DNA from: a virus | IMG/VR virus record: IMGVR_UViG_3300017971_000664 | Coordinates: 1-27,901 of that record | Strand: one strand, 5' to 3' | Length of the DNA: 27,901 bases | Shown here: positions 8,492-27,901 of the stretch, piece after piece | Layout of the letters: each line of letters starts with the position of its first letter | Position numbering within the stretch: the first letter of the stretch is position 1 | The notes under the pieces: model-generated | Database searches by the model: none | Seen by the model: the letters and a program-made list of their open reading frames with translations, nothing else | What the model was told of the DNA's origin: nothing | Translations under genes and position numbers: made by a program

Positions 8492-9295
8492 ATGGCAACT
8501 AAAAAACGTGGGTTTAATCAGCTGTTAATCGATGCAGATGGATACATATTCAGCACAGCTTGCGTATGTGAAAAACCAAATCCTTTTGATCCTAACGAAC
8601 CTCCCGTAGTAGATGTAAACATGGGGCAGGCTATTCTACGGAAACGGTTCAATGAACTTTTTGACAGGCTAAGAGCCGACAGCTACATTATGTTCCTTTC
8701 CTGTAGGAGAGAAGAGGGACATCGTCGGTTAATGGTAGATGAAAGCTACAAAGCAAACCGGAATAATAAGAAGTCCCCGGCAGCGCTACAGCCTTTGAGG
8801 AAATGGGTAGAAGAGAATTATGAATGCATGAGTGTACCTCATCTGGAAGCGGATGATCTAATTGGTATTTATGCTACAGAGAAACAGACCACTTACAATA
8901 GGATTATCGTGTCATTTGATAAGGACGTAATTGGTCTTCCAGGTAAGACGTATCATCCGAAGCAAGAAAAGAGGAGGATGGTAAAGAAGACAACCAGCTT
9001 TAAATTCTTTATCTATCAGTGTATCGTTGGTGATACTGCTGATGGTTATAAGGGAATCCCAAGAGTAGGGAAAGTTGGGGCTAATAAATTCCTGGCTTCA
9101 TGCCGGACATTACGTGAGATGTGGCCTAAACTTATTGAGTTCGCTGCATCGAAAGGATTAGATGAAGAATACATGCTTAAACAGGCTCGCATGGCATATC
9201 TTTTGCGACATTGGAATTATGATATGGATACTGGCGAGATTCGGTTATTTGATCCGGAAGTCGATATTGAGAAGATGATAACTGGTGAATATTAA
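8492..9295 (+). CDS. 5'-3' exonuclease, T7 gp6-like (FEN superfamily)
   Basis: This 267-aa metal-dependent exonuclease removes RNA primers and, in T7, degrades host DNA. Acidic active-site residues are in LIDADG (12-17), LEADDLIG (118-125), SFDKDV (141-146) and VGDTADGYKGIP (179-190). The last leads into a helix-hairpin-helix, GIPRVGKVGANKF (188-200), typical of the PIN/FEN fold. It follows the same late position in the replication module as gene 6 in T7 and is the last replication gene before packaging and head genes. Start ATG 8492 follows GAAGAGGAG in the end of the zinc-ribbon gene. Confidence 0.95.
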   Translation: MATKKRGFNQLLIDADGYIFSTACVCEKPNPFDPNEPPVVDVNMGQAILRKRFNELFDRLRADSYIMFLSCRREEGHRRLMVDESYKANRNNKKSPAALQPLRKWVEENYECMSVPHLEADDLIGIYATEKQTTYNRIIVSFDKDVIGLPGKTYHPKQEKRRMVKKTTSFKFFIYQCIVGDTADGYKGIPRVGKVGANKFLASCRTLREMWPKLIEFAASKGLDEEYMLKQARMAYLLRHWNYDMDTGEIRLFDPEVDIEKMITGEY

Positions 9296-9312
9296 TATAG
9301 AGGAGGATGGTG

Positions 9313-11268
9313 ATGGAGATTAACAGTCCAATACTAAAAGATACTATTCATAACCTCGCACCATCCTCAGATTTAACAGTATCTGAGTGGGGAGCGAAGT
9401 ACAGGGTAATGACCCAATATGATAGCCCCGCCGCTGGCCAACTGTTCGATAACAACAGAGTTCCCTATACAGTAGGGATTATGGATTCATTCTCTCAGCA
9501 AAGTGTGAGAATGATAGTGTTCAAGGCTGGAACTCAGATCGGAAAAACGAACATGATGATGAACATGCTTGGATGGGTTGCAAGTGAAAAACCTGGTCCA
9601 ACCATGCTCGCATTACCTACAAAGGAATCAGTGGACAGATTCTCATCTGCCCGAATAGATCCGATGTTCAAAGCAAGTCCAAAGTTGAAACCGTTACAGC
9701 AGAAGAAGTGGCGAACACAGCAGAAACACTTCAATGGTGGCGTGCTTTACCTTGCTACCTCAAATTCATCTGCTCAGATGTCCTCAGCATCAGTTGAGTA
9801 TGTATTTGCTGATGAGTTGAAAGACTGGAAGTCCTCTGTTAATACTGGTGGATCAGATGCTGTAAAGTATCTACTTGATAGACAGAAGACTTTCCCCTAC
9901 ACTAAAAAAGCCGTATTGGTATCCTCACCTTCTGGTGAAGAATCAATGCTTGAAAAATACTATGACGCTTGCGAAGTCAAAGTACAATACCATGTAAGAT
10001 GTCCGAAGTGTCAGTATCAACATGTGCTGAAATTTGAGAACATTGACTTTGGTGAAGAGTACTTTCCATTTGATGTTCCTAGAGAGAAAGACAACAGTGA
10101 TTACTGGGCAGCTGCCAGGAAACACGCTTGCTATATATGCCCTGAGTGTAGTCATAGAATAACCGATTACATGAAGCCAAAGATGAATCGAGCAGGAGAG
10201 TGGCTTACAGAAGATGGTGATCCTATTCCTAAAGATGCTGTGTCTATTGGATTCCAGCTGTCCTCTCTATACTCTCAAGACTTGAAGTGGGGTGACATTG
10301 TTTTTGAATTCCTAGAATCACGTCAGGATCGGCATAAGCTCGAGAACTTCATCACCGGATGGTTGGGTGAATGTTGGACCAATGACGTAGTCGCTACTAG
10401 TGAAGAAGAGCTTAGGAATAATATTATTGATCTTGATCCTGTAACAGCTCCAGTAGACACAATTGCTATCACGGCTGGTATTGACTGCCAGGCAACTCAT
10501 TTCTATTTCAGTGTCTGGGCATGGAATAAAGCAGGGGATGGAACGATGATTCACCATGGAATGTTAAATACATTCGAGGAAGTAAGTGATCTAGTCCATA
10601 CTAATGAATATCCAATCTTAGGTACAGATGAAACCATGCAGATCTGGCGTGCTTCAATAGATACAGGTGGTGGAATGTCTACCAATGAAGCTGGTATGGA
10701 GTACTCAATGACAGATGCTGCATATAGGTTTGTCAGAGAACATAGTAGAGGTAAGATATTTGCCGTAAAGGGTAATTCGGTTAAGATGGCTGGACGTAGA
10801 GTTCAGATGTCCATGCTTGACAAATTCCCAAATGGTAAAGCAATGCCAGGTGGACTCGCTCTTTATTTACTTAACACAGAGGAGTTCAAGGAAACATTAT
10901 TCTGGAGATTTGCAAGAGAAGAAGGTGAGCAGAATAGATTGGTATTCAATAAGGATGTCGATAAAACATGGTTTGCACACCTGACAGCGGAAAAGAAAGT
11001 TTTAAATGATAAAGATGTATGGGAATGGAAGCAGGTTAAGAAGCGTAACGATTACCTCGATACCTGCGTGTATAACTTAGCTTTAATTGATCCTCAGTTC
11101 GGTGGTGGACTTAAGGTACTCGGAAACAAGAGAGCCTCATTAAATAAGTCAAAAACAGTACAGGATCAAATGGCTGAACTTAACCATTTCGCACAGCAAA
11201 ATAAAAAACCGCCAGCCTATAACCAACCGGTACGACGCCGGATAAGTGATGGGTGGCACAGGAGGTAA
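9313..11268 (+). CDS. Terminase large subunit, GpA family
   Basis: This is the packaging ATPase and cos-type nuclease of about 651 aa (lambda gpA 641). Numbered from ATG 9313: the N-terminal helix SEWGAKYRVM (24-33) is typical; Walker A is KAGTQIGKT (71-79); Walker B is YVFADE (163-168). Two Cys pairs (C230/C233 and C276/C279) form the zinc knuckle usual in GpA proteins. The nuclease domain shows acidic strands in AGIDCQATHFYF, ASIDTGGG and DYLDTCVYN. AGGAGG (9301-9306) is six bases from ATG 9313, so that start is preferred to ATG 9307, which touches the ribosome site. Small terminase candidates are far away at the right end, unlike lambda, where Nu1 directly precedes A. Confidence 0.96.
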   Translation: MEINSPILKDTIHNLAPSSDLTVSEWGAKYRVMTQYDSPAAGQLFDNNRVPYTVGIMDSFSQQSVRMIVFKAGTQIGKTNMMMNMLGWVASEKPGPTMLALPTKESVDRFSSARIDPMFKASPKLKPLQQKKWRTQQKHFNGGVLYLATSNSSAQMSSASVEYVFADELKDWKSSVNTGGSDAVKYLLDRQKTFPYTKKAVLVSSPSGEESMLEKYYDACEVKVQYHVRCPKCQYQHVLKFENIDFGEEYFPFDVPREKDNSDYWAAARKHACYICPECSHRITDYMKPKMNRAGEWLTEDGDPIPKDAVSIGFQLSSLYSQDLKWGDIVFEFLESRQDRHKLENFITGWLGECWTNDVVATSEEELRNNIIDLDPVTAPVDTIAITAGIDCQATHFYFSVWAWNKAGDGTMIHHGMLNTFEEVSDLVHTNEYPILGTDETMQIWRASIDTGGGMSTNEAGMEYSMTDAAYRFVREHSRGKIFAVKGNSVKMAGRRVQMSMLDKFPNGKAMPGGLALYLLNTEEFKETLFWRFAREEGEQNRLVFNKDVDKTWFAHLTAEKKVLNDKDVWEWKQVKKRNDYLDTCVYNLALIDPQFGGGLKVLGNKRASLNKSKTVQDQMAELNHFAQQNKKPPAYNQPVRRRISDGWHRR

Positions 11269-13020: not shown

Positions 13021-14170
13021 AACACGCAAAGATTTTATTGACCGTTGCATTCCGTACGTAATTAAGGACGGAACTGCCAAGGATGGCAAACAAGCTTATG
13101 CCGTGTGTAGATCAATGTATGATCGAAAGGACAAAAAGAAAATGTCGAATGCAACCTTGAATGCGGACGTAAAGTGCTTTGCCCAGACCGACGGTGCTGA
13201 AAAAGAATTTGATTTCGAGCTGGTAGGCTATACCGGAAAGATTATGTCTCAGATGGGTCATAATTTTATCTTTGATCTTGATGGTATCGAAGCCAAAGAT
13301 GGTGGGGTAATCATTTTGCGAGAACACGAACGTGATCGGATTGTTGGTCATGGTCAGGTATCTAAAGATGAACGAGGTCTGGTAGTAAGAGGTAAATTCT
13401 CCCAGGCTACTAAAGATGGTAAAGAGATAAAAGCCATCCTGGAAGAGGGGATAGTACCTCTCCAGTGTTCCGTTGGGATTGCACCTGAATCAGTAAGAGC
13501 TGGAGAAGATGGAATGTCTATCAACGGGTTCGCTATCAACGATAGGGTTCAGGTTTGGGATAAAAGTTATGTGGGTGAAGTCTCTATCTGCTCATGGGGA
13601 GTTGATACTGACACATCCGTAAGATCTTTTGCGAAGGAAATAGATATGGAAGATATCAAGAAAGAAGAAATCAAAGAAGAAGAAGTAAAGGCTTGTGAAG
13701 AATGCGGTAAGGACGTTTGCGAATGTGGAGACGATCATGCTGACGAATCTAAAGAAGAAGTTAAAGAAGAGAAAGTTGAAGAAAAGGCTGGAGACGATAC
13801 GGAAGAGAAGAAATTTAGCGCTGCTGACATGGACGCTGCTATACTCGCCGAAAGAGCAAGGGTAGCTGGTATCCTTGATGCTGGTGCTCCTCTGGAGCTG
13901 GCTCACAAAGCTATCACTGATGGTATGGATGAAGGAGCTGCTTACAAATTCTTCTGGCAGTCTGAGAAAAGCAAGAAAGACGTTGGTCTTGCTGAAATGG
14001 CTGCTGCTGCTCCTGTTGTTGAAAAAGTTATTGAAGACAAGAAAGATGCTGAGCCTGGATACACTGAACTTATCGAACTTGCAAAAGCCGAAGGTAAATC
14101 ACACATGGACGCTATGGCTCACGTGATGAAAAACCACCCGGAAGCTTACGCTAAATTTATTGAGGGATAA
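12998..14170 (+). CDS. Prohead maturation protease with C-terminal scaffold region
   Basis: The 390-aa product has three parts. Residues 1-48 hold the R-K-D-F-I-x-R-C-I-P motif often found at the start of phage prohead proteases. Residues 55-212 form the protease core, with a likely catalytic H110 in REHERDRIVG and S158 in LQCSVGI, as in HK97-type (U35) serine proteases. A charged Lys/Glu linker (213-272) contains a Cys cluster (C233, C236, C241, C243). Residues 273-390 are helical with AERARVAGIL and look like a scaffold. It would guide capsid assembly and cleave scaffold and itself. A second in-frame start with its own ribosome site lies at 13646. Gene order portal-protease-decoration-capsid follows lambda. 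Confidence 0.9.
   Translation: MPTPKKNETRKDFIDRCIPYVIKDGTAKDGKQAYAVCRSMYDRKDKKKMSNATLNADVKCFAQTDGAEKEFDFELVGYTGKIMSQMGHNFIFDLDGIEAKDGGVIILREHERDRIVGHGQVSKDERGLVVRGKFSQATKDGKEIKAILEEGIVPLQCSVGIAPESVRAGEDGMSINGFAINDRVQVWDKSYVGEVSICSWGVDTDTSVRSFAKEIDMEDIKKEEIKEEEVKACEECGKDVCECGDDHADESKEEVKEEKVEEKAGDDTEEKKFSAADMDAAILAERARVAGILDAGAPLELAHKAITDGMDEGAAYKFFWQSEKSKKDVGLAEMAAAAPVVEKVIEDKKDAEPGYTELIELAKAEGKSHMDAMAHVMKNHPEAYAKFIEG
13646..14170 (+). CDS. Possible nested scaffold protein from an internal start
   Basis: ATG 13646 is codon 217 of the protease frame and is preceded by AAGGA (13634-13638) with a seven-base spacer. It falls exactly at the end of the protease domain, so it would give a 174-aa scaffold-only product (start MEDIKKEEIKEEEVKACEEC). 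Lambda makes its scaffold Nu3 from the same kind of internal start inside gene C. The ribosome site is partial, so this is inferred rather than shown. Confidence 0.45.
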   Translation: MEDIKKEEIKEEEVKACEECGKDVCECGDDHADESKEEVKEEKVEEKAGDDTEEKKFSAADMDAAILAERARVAGILDAGAPLELAHKAITDGMDEGAAYKFFWQSEKSKKDVGLAEMAAAAPVVEKVIEDKKDAEPGYTELIELAKAEGKSHMDAMAHVMKNHPEAYAKFIEG

Positions 14171-26983: not shown

Positions 26984-27218
26984 GCTACGGGTTAAAGAGT
27001 TACGTGGATTTGCTGATAGAGTTAATAGTTATGTTGAGGGTCTATCACATAGTGGCCTGATGACTGACTGGATCTTTGCAAATGCTGATATGATTCTGGA
27101 AGTTTTCTTTACAGCAGCGAAGGAGATATACAATGCCAAGAGGGAAGAAAGATACCGCGAAGAAGCAGACAAAGCGTGGACCTACGTCCGGGACAACGTG
27201 GACTACCTGTCCAGCTAA
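26952..27218 (+). CDS. Small protein between the two small terminase genes (about 88 aa)
   Basis: The frame opens at ATG 26946, but AGGAG (26941-26945) touches that ATG, so GTG 26952 with a six-base spacer is the likelier start. It overlaps the end of terminase candidate 1 and, at its other end, the start of candidate 2 by 86 bases. The product is basic at first (KTKKKSRLRVKELRGFADRV), then helical and hydrophobic (WIFANADMILEVFFTAAKEI), then acidic. Unknown function; possibly a packaging accessory. Confidence 0.5.
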   Translation: MKIVKTKKKSRLRVKELRGFADRVNSYVEGLSHSGLMTDWIFANADMILEVFFTAAKEIYNAKREERYREEADKAWTYVRDNVDYLSS

Positions 27219-27693
27219 GTTAGTAACGTATCTAGCGTCGATATCTGAGAGAGCTCTTACTGACTGGGTTAGGAAAGGATTAGTCAAAAAGACTGGTCAC
27301 GGTAAGTATAATATCAAGTCTGTACTTAAGGCTGCTCTTGAGCGAGATGTATTTCAGGGAGGTACTTCATTAAATGAGGTAACTACTGATGAGATTCAAC
27401 AGAATAAGGCGTTATTGGAGAAAGCACGTGCTGATTTGGCAGAAACTGAAGTAGCGATAGAGAAGCGTAAGCTGGTGGAGGTAGAGGATCTAAAGGGGTT
27501 CCTAGCTAATCAGATGGTGATGTTTAAGAAGGATCTAATGTCATTACCTCGAACAATTCCAGGGGCTTGCTACGGATTAACGGAGAAGGAAATTGAAGAG
27601 GATTTATCTTCAAGAATTTCGAAGTATTGTGAAGAACGGTTTGATAATACCGAATTATCTTCATTTATTAAATTTCTCGATCACGCTAAATAA
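27133..27693 (+). CDS. Terminase small subunit candidate 2, Nu1-like (186 aa)
   Basis: AAGGAG (27120-27125) is seven bases before ATG 27133. After a basic, probably disordered N-terminus (PRGKKDTAKKQTKRG), a helix-turn-helix (YLASISERALTDWVRKGLVK then KTGHGKYNIKSVLKAAL) and a long helix (NKALLEKARADLAETEVAIE) are followed by EVEDLKGFLANQMVMFKKDL and S-L-P-R-T-I-P-G. This is the Nu1 architecture again, but it is clearly different from the gene 150 bases upstream. It is the last gene of the window, directly before an AT-rich repeat region. It may be a second terminase subunit or a paralogue with a regulatory job. Confidence 0.78.
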   Translation: MPRGKKDTAKKQTKRGPTSGTTWTTCPAKLVTYLASISERALTDWVRKGLVKKTGHGKYNIKSVLKAALERDVFQGGTSLNEVTTDEIQQNKALLEKARADLAETEVAIEKRKLVEVEDLKGFLANQMVMFKKDLMSLPRTIPGACYGLTEKEIEEDLSSRISKYCEERFDNTELSSFIKFLDHAK

Positions 27694-27719
27694 TTAATTT
27701 TATTGGATATAAATAATAT

Positions 27720-27782
27720 TTTTTATGTAATAACTAAATATTTTTATGTGAAATTAATTTATTTTTATGTGGAAATTTATTT
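27720..27782. repeat. Three direct repeats with exact 21-bp period
   Basis: The core TTTTTATGT begins at 27720, 27741 and 27762, each followed by A/G-rich bases and an AAAT or TTA-rich tail, so the units are in phase over two helical turns. Position next to two small terminase genes suggests protein-binding iterons, for example a cosB-like terminase site. Confidence 0.65.
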
Positions 27783-27792
27783 GGTCGGAATG
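27781..27792. repeat. Right arm of the 12-bp inverted repeat
   Basis: TTGGTCGGAATG is the exact reverse complement of 70-81. The nearby TCGGCC (27803-27808) extends the symmetry imperfectly. Confidence 0.6.
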
Positions 27793-27901
27793 TAAAATAA
27801 TTTCGGCCACTTAAATATTTTTGATATAGTGAAATTTTTTGTCAAGGCTACTGAAGTCATTTTTTCGCAAATTACTAGAAAAACCACTTGCCGCCGAGAC
27901 C

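Follow-up and report, generated by a model that had tools for sequence, protein, structure and literature searches.

In phage lambda, the cosB segment spans about 120 bp and contains three binding sites for the small terminase subunit (TerS), of which R2 is inverted relative to R3 and R1, and across lambda-like phages a match at R3 accompanies a match in the TerS recognition helix (PMC4669245). The same cos region carries intrinsic bends at I1 and I2 (PMC4856287). In the Lactococcus 936-type phages, according to PMC6105707, cos is flanked by 5-6 copies of the short direct repeat AATCT and by putative terminase-binding sites R1-R3. According to the authors of PhageTerm, assemblers naturally put cos ends at contig limits, and end repair duplicates the 5' overhangs (PMC5557969).

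Here we compare with these systems a stretch of 27,901 nucleotides of viral DNA (hereafter, the window; record IMGVR_UViG_3300017971_000664, classed as linear). Like lambda cos (cosQ-cosN-cosB, served by gpNu1/gpA), the locus combines a GpA-type large terminase (TerL), encoded in the window, with a predicted winged-helix TerS, a TerS gene beside the candidate cosB, and three candidate TerS sites located about 180 bp or less from an apparent cohesive end. Unlike lambda, with its inverted R2, the window has all three copies in the same orientation, at an exact spacing of 21 bp, and no inverted copy of the repeated word is present anywhere in the window; lambda, in turn, has I1, a bend or IHF site, between R3 and R2. 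Furthermore, the window encodes two TerS genes, with TerL 15 kb away, and its cosB-side end lies to the right of the late genes, with the TerS genes running towards that end. The 936-type cos is similar in its flanking direct repeats and putative terminase-binding sites, but its repeat unit is a different one, and its 11 nt carry inverted repeats of 10 bp, a feature not seen in the window. The Roseobacter phages CRP-811, CRP-821 and CRP-831, together with IMG/VR phages that encode GpA terminases, share with the window the end pattern GGT...YTAG, the GpA TerL and a relative of TerS2 (~30% identity), but have a single annotated TerS beside TerL and an end upstream of TerS; the IMG/VR ends, moreover, lack phased repeats.

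The repeat array and the adjoining small-terminase genes

The word TTTTTATGT occurs three times in the leader that runs from the second of two small-terminase genes in tandem to the contig end (Table 1), with start-to-start spacings of 21 and 21. The first copy starts 26 bp after the TerS2 stop, and the repeats lie 131-181 bp inside the contig end, a position comparable to that of cosB in lambda. Tandem Repeats Finder (TRF) delineates the same array at 27720-27782 (period 21, 3.0 copies, score 73), and no other exact 9-mer in the 27.9 kb window has three copies separated by one and the same interval of 15-45 nt. No equally spaced triple arose in 20,000 dinucleotide-preserving shuffles of positions 27694-27901, and such triples appeared in 2 of the 20,000 shuffles confined to the AT-rich leader (27694-27832). 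These observations confirm that the repeats are real and beyond chance. They bear out the initial annotation, which had pointed to three identical words 21 bases apart; its description of the stretch as AT-rich holds as well (83% AT at 27694-27832), as does the location beside terminase genes, because two small-terminase-like genes (PHROG phrog_57) adjoin the array. Degenerate copies extend the periodicity upstream of the first copy, with an identity of 0.63 at lags 21 and 23, a value attained in 26 of 5000 shuffles. A search for the triple pattern across all viral contigs gave 0 matches.

Table 1. Positions of the terminase genes, the repeats and the end-proximal features in the window
Feature	Coordinates	Strand	Remarks
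TerL, lambda GpA-type large terminase with an ATPase and a nuclease domain	9307..11268	+	PF05876 E 3.8e-54, PF20454 E 2.1e-50
TerS1, small-terminase-like, 167 aa	26480..26983	+	PHROG phrog_57 E 1.3e-10
TerS2, small-terminase-like, 186 aa, predicted winged-helix N-terminus	27133..27693	+	PHROG phrog_57 E 9.3e-17
Wider AT-rich periodicity of ~21 bp, degenerate copies upstream of copy 1	27687..27782		TRF rows 27687-27770 and 27720-27782
Repeat copy 1, TTTTTATGT	27720..27728	+	
Repeat copy 2, TTTTTATGT	27741..27749	+	
Repeat copy 3, TTTTTATGT	27762..27770	+	
RNA hairpin with a stem of 10 bp, two of them G-U, and a lower stem of 5 bp, then ATTTTT	27775..27816	+	likely late-operon terminator
End-proximal stretch aligning with the relative's right contig end	27842..27901		last 60 nt
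Putative cohesive (cos) end	27870..27901	-	inwards GGT...CTAG (CTAG at 27875-27878), a pattern shared with the ends of other GpA phages

The two TerS proteins show no pairwise likeness in BLASTP. In the structural model of TerS2 (pLDDT 71-82 across residues 21-70), the N-terminus resembles viral DNA-packaging and MerR-type DNA-binding domains (7lxs, 7lw0, 6hn7; Z 5.8-6.5); in the Foldseek comparison, the best E value for any chain was 0.034, and the sequence profile gave only weak matches to solved structures, one of them (E 0.35) to the small subunit of a terminase. The model thus suggests a winged-helix-like N-terminus, the fold matches being modest and not proof of membership. The sequence profile of TerS1 matched no solved structure, and the model of this protein (pLDDT 51) was set aside as poor.

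With regard to the genome as a whole, a T7-like replication set (gp2.5-type protein, endonuclease, primase-helicase, polymerase and exonuclease) is followed by the GpA TerL, the portal, protease and capsid genes, a series of mostly match-less genes and, finally, the two TerS-like genes. A 99.9% identical contig extends 2.7 kb upstream of base 1, where it encodes a ribonucleotide reductase and a T7-type RNA polymerase; base 1 is therefore no end, and the window covers the right-hand portion of a genome that extends beyond it. A circular genome was rejected because this contig continues upstream of base 1 into unrelated sequence. At positions 13-60, after the ribonucleotide reductase gene, a strong hairpin with a T-run forms a likely terminator. 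A search of the window and the upstream 2.7 kb for a phage-RNA-polymerase promoter family yielded no pair of 20-mers matching at 18 or more of the 20 positions. In our preferred explanation, which we put forward as a whole only tentatively, the window belongs to an uncultured hybrid phage, in which T7-type replication and RNA polymerase genes are joined to a lambda-type (GpA) packaging module.

The contig limit as a candidate cohesive end

With TerS2, TerL or the primase as single queries, the near-identical contig was the only relative found, and a search of genome contigs with the TerS2 alignment found none. A 43.4 kb record, IMGVR_UViG_3300010413_000064 (hereafter, the relative), was reached by way of aligned TerL sequences. 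Its TerL is 58% identical to that of the window, and it encodes both small terminases in the order seen in the window (52% identity for TerS1 and 40% for TerS2), also separated from TerL. The window stops 208 bp after TerS2 and the relative stops 248 bp after it. When the last 60 nt of the two contigs were aligned end to end, the score was reached in 2 of 2000 shuffles; local alignment of the two leaders, not anchored at the ends, was no better than shuffles (1009/2000). The two ends of the relative have GGACC in common, and, when joined, form the near-palindrome GCGCGGACCCGCGC.

We further compared the window end with 74 GpA loci (near-duplicates included) for which the locus start coincides with the contig end. 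GGT is found within the first four bases in 26 of the 74, and in 18 of the 26 loci that have their TerL start at 500-900 bp (Fisher p 1e-5). Many of the IMG/VR GpA-terminase contigs start with GGT and a conserved end motif, which suggests that cos ends are readable from contig limits. In 13 of 15 GpA ends, CRP-811 among them, YTAG follows 25-26 nt from GGT; in the window end, read inwards, the distance is 24. Scored against these 15 ends, the window end ranked best among the 752 GGT-starting sites on both strands (19.8, next 17.5), a score reached by none of 6000 random 32-mers and by 2 of 2000 shuffles. CRP-811, a circular record, has the same kind of end sequence directly upstream of TerS. 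The window end was absent from the matches, up to E 100, of an nhmmer profile built from 18 GpA ends, and the right end of the relative did not exceed shuffles in the comparison with the 15 ends (561/2000). In six other GpA records, the right ends had no overlap with the left ends, these records being probably incomplete. The second terminus of the window phage was not found.

Because the end aligns with that of the relative and resembles other GpA contig ends, the window probably terminates at a cohesive end, and we consider it very likely that the contig limit is a physical terminus. In its sequence, the right end of the window looks like the end that lies on the TerS side in other GpA phages, inverted with respect to the direction in which the late genes run, and it is somewhat more probably than not the end that is packaged first. 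The end common to the relative, the likeness to GpA ends and the adjoining TerS genes thus lend support to the location proposed for the packaging region in the initial annotation. That the contig stopped here by an accident of assembly, with no terminus at this place, is improbable: linear records such as this one are often fragments, and the window start is indeed no terminus, but the contigs of two divergent phages stop at one aligned position, the window end matches those of other GpA contigs, and the repeats sit 131 bp before the contig end rather than at it.

Alternative explanations of the repeats

The main rival to a cosB-like array is a neutral or structural 3' leader, that is, an AT-rich tract that separates the last late gene from its terminator, arose by slippage or local duplication and has no role in packaging, TerS binding instead to the conserved stretch at 27842-27901. 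The hairpin that directly follows the array is pertinent here. On the + strand, it folds at -15.5 kcal/mol (z -4.2), compared to -4.4 kcal/mol (z -0.9) on the - strand, the two G-U pairs in the + strand stem accounting for the difference, and it fits a terminator of the late operon better than a palindromic DNA site for a protein. The position of this terminator-like element between the repeats and the contig end counts against the cosB reading; the repeats therefore probably belong to a transcribed 3' leader as well as to cos-proximal DNA, which keeps the neutral alternative alive. So does the comparison with other phages: the last 60 nt are conserved in the relative but the phased repeats have no counterpart there (its record holds no exact 9-mer in three copies with a single interval of 15-45 nt), its region after TerS2 is likewise an AT-rich leader with hairpins, and none of the 26 other GpA contig ends (first 250 nt each, near-duplicates included) has such a triple, so that phased direct repeats are no general mark of GpA ends. 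On the other hand, a neutral origin does not readily account for the exact 21-bp spacing of three identical 9-mers, given its rarity in shuffles. In addition, the putative recognition helix of TerS2 matches that of the relative in 1 of 10 residues, compared to 31 of 52 in the coiled region, so a changed binding site would not be surprising and differing sites are to be expected. On balance, we regard the neutral leader as a serious but rather unlikely explanation.

One half of the hairpin stem, at 27781, is the 12-mer TTGGTCGGAATG, which has exactly two copies in the window, in opposite orientations and in two intergenic regions (27781-27792 on the + strand and 70-81 on the - strand). A bipartite motif combining TTGGTCGGAATG with a downstream TCGGCC was rejected: it occurs in three records, one of which is the same phage; the other two, with the motif in a tail-like gene and in a stretch resembling a tRNA, look unrelated on inspection.

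A further alternative is that the phased T-tracts produce a static or host-protein-assisted bend that aids terminase assembly, without direct contact with TerS, in the manner of I1 and I2. The T5 tracts are indeed two turns apart, and the intrinsic bends of lambda cos provide a precedent (PMC4856287). Under a wedge model, the stretch curves by ~61 degrees per 63 bp, which is within the top 4% of the window. However, among 1000 shuffled versions of this stretch, 222 curve as strongly. The predicted curvature of the repeats is thus no more than their composition gives, so that the earlier description of the stretch as bendable holds only in part, and a dedicated bending element appears improbable.

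In general, iterons are AT-rich direct repeats, and the array resembles them in this respect. Nevertheless, a replication origin with iterons, the other option in the initial annotation, is very unlikely: the recognized replication genes (the last being the exonuclease gene, 8492-9295) are at least 18 kb from the repeats in the window, the replication set is T7-like, no initiator was recognized among the genes scanned, and the longer, different AT array of the relative is inside its replication module, with none at its end. That array, at 13526-13866 in phage orientation, consists of ATTATTATTATAATATACT-type repeats and is itself a possible origin.

A proposed cosB-like array in a hybrid phage

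Based on the sequence evidence of the repeats, the two TerS genes, the contig end common to the relative and the likeness of this end to those of GpA phages, we propose that the array is a candidate cosB-like set of TerS-binding sites in a hybrid T7/lambda phage, a reading that we favor without considering it probable. Under this proposal, the 208 bp from the TerS2 gene to the contig end would be the cos-proximal packaging region. With one copy for every two turns, the helix would present one and the same side each time, and TerS (TerS2, perhaps together with TerS1) would bind the copies 131-181 bp inside the end; such binding to the putative sites is plausible, at somewhat less than an even chance. 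Against the idea in the initial annotation that the copies act as R sites like those of lambda, which is possible, stand their common orientation, their absence from the relative and from the 26 other GpA ends, and the lack of excess curvature. TerS on the repeats would anchor the GpA large terminase, which would then nick a GC-rich cosN at the end, so that packaging would start from the right end of the window.

A more elaborate version, which we consider doubtful, is a split, mirror-image module: a cosB end with in-phase direct repeats as candidate TerS sites would be read by a tandem, perhaps hetero-oligomeric, TerS pair kept beside the site, with TerL moved 15 kb away, and packaging would proceed from the right end, against the direction of transcription, in a phage with T7-type replication. 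In the portions of the literature that were covered, concerning direct repeats at cos, small terminases in tandem, and hybrid phages, we found no description of this arrangement.

If the contig ends considered here are cos ends, the limits of metagenomic contigs would directly give the packaging sites of uncultured GpA phages. In the window, TerS and the end appear to have stayed linked after TerL moved away, and the two TerS genes are conserved. Whether the inherited unit of packaging specificity is TerS with its site, rather than TerS with TerL, thus becomes a question that can be tested now.
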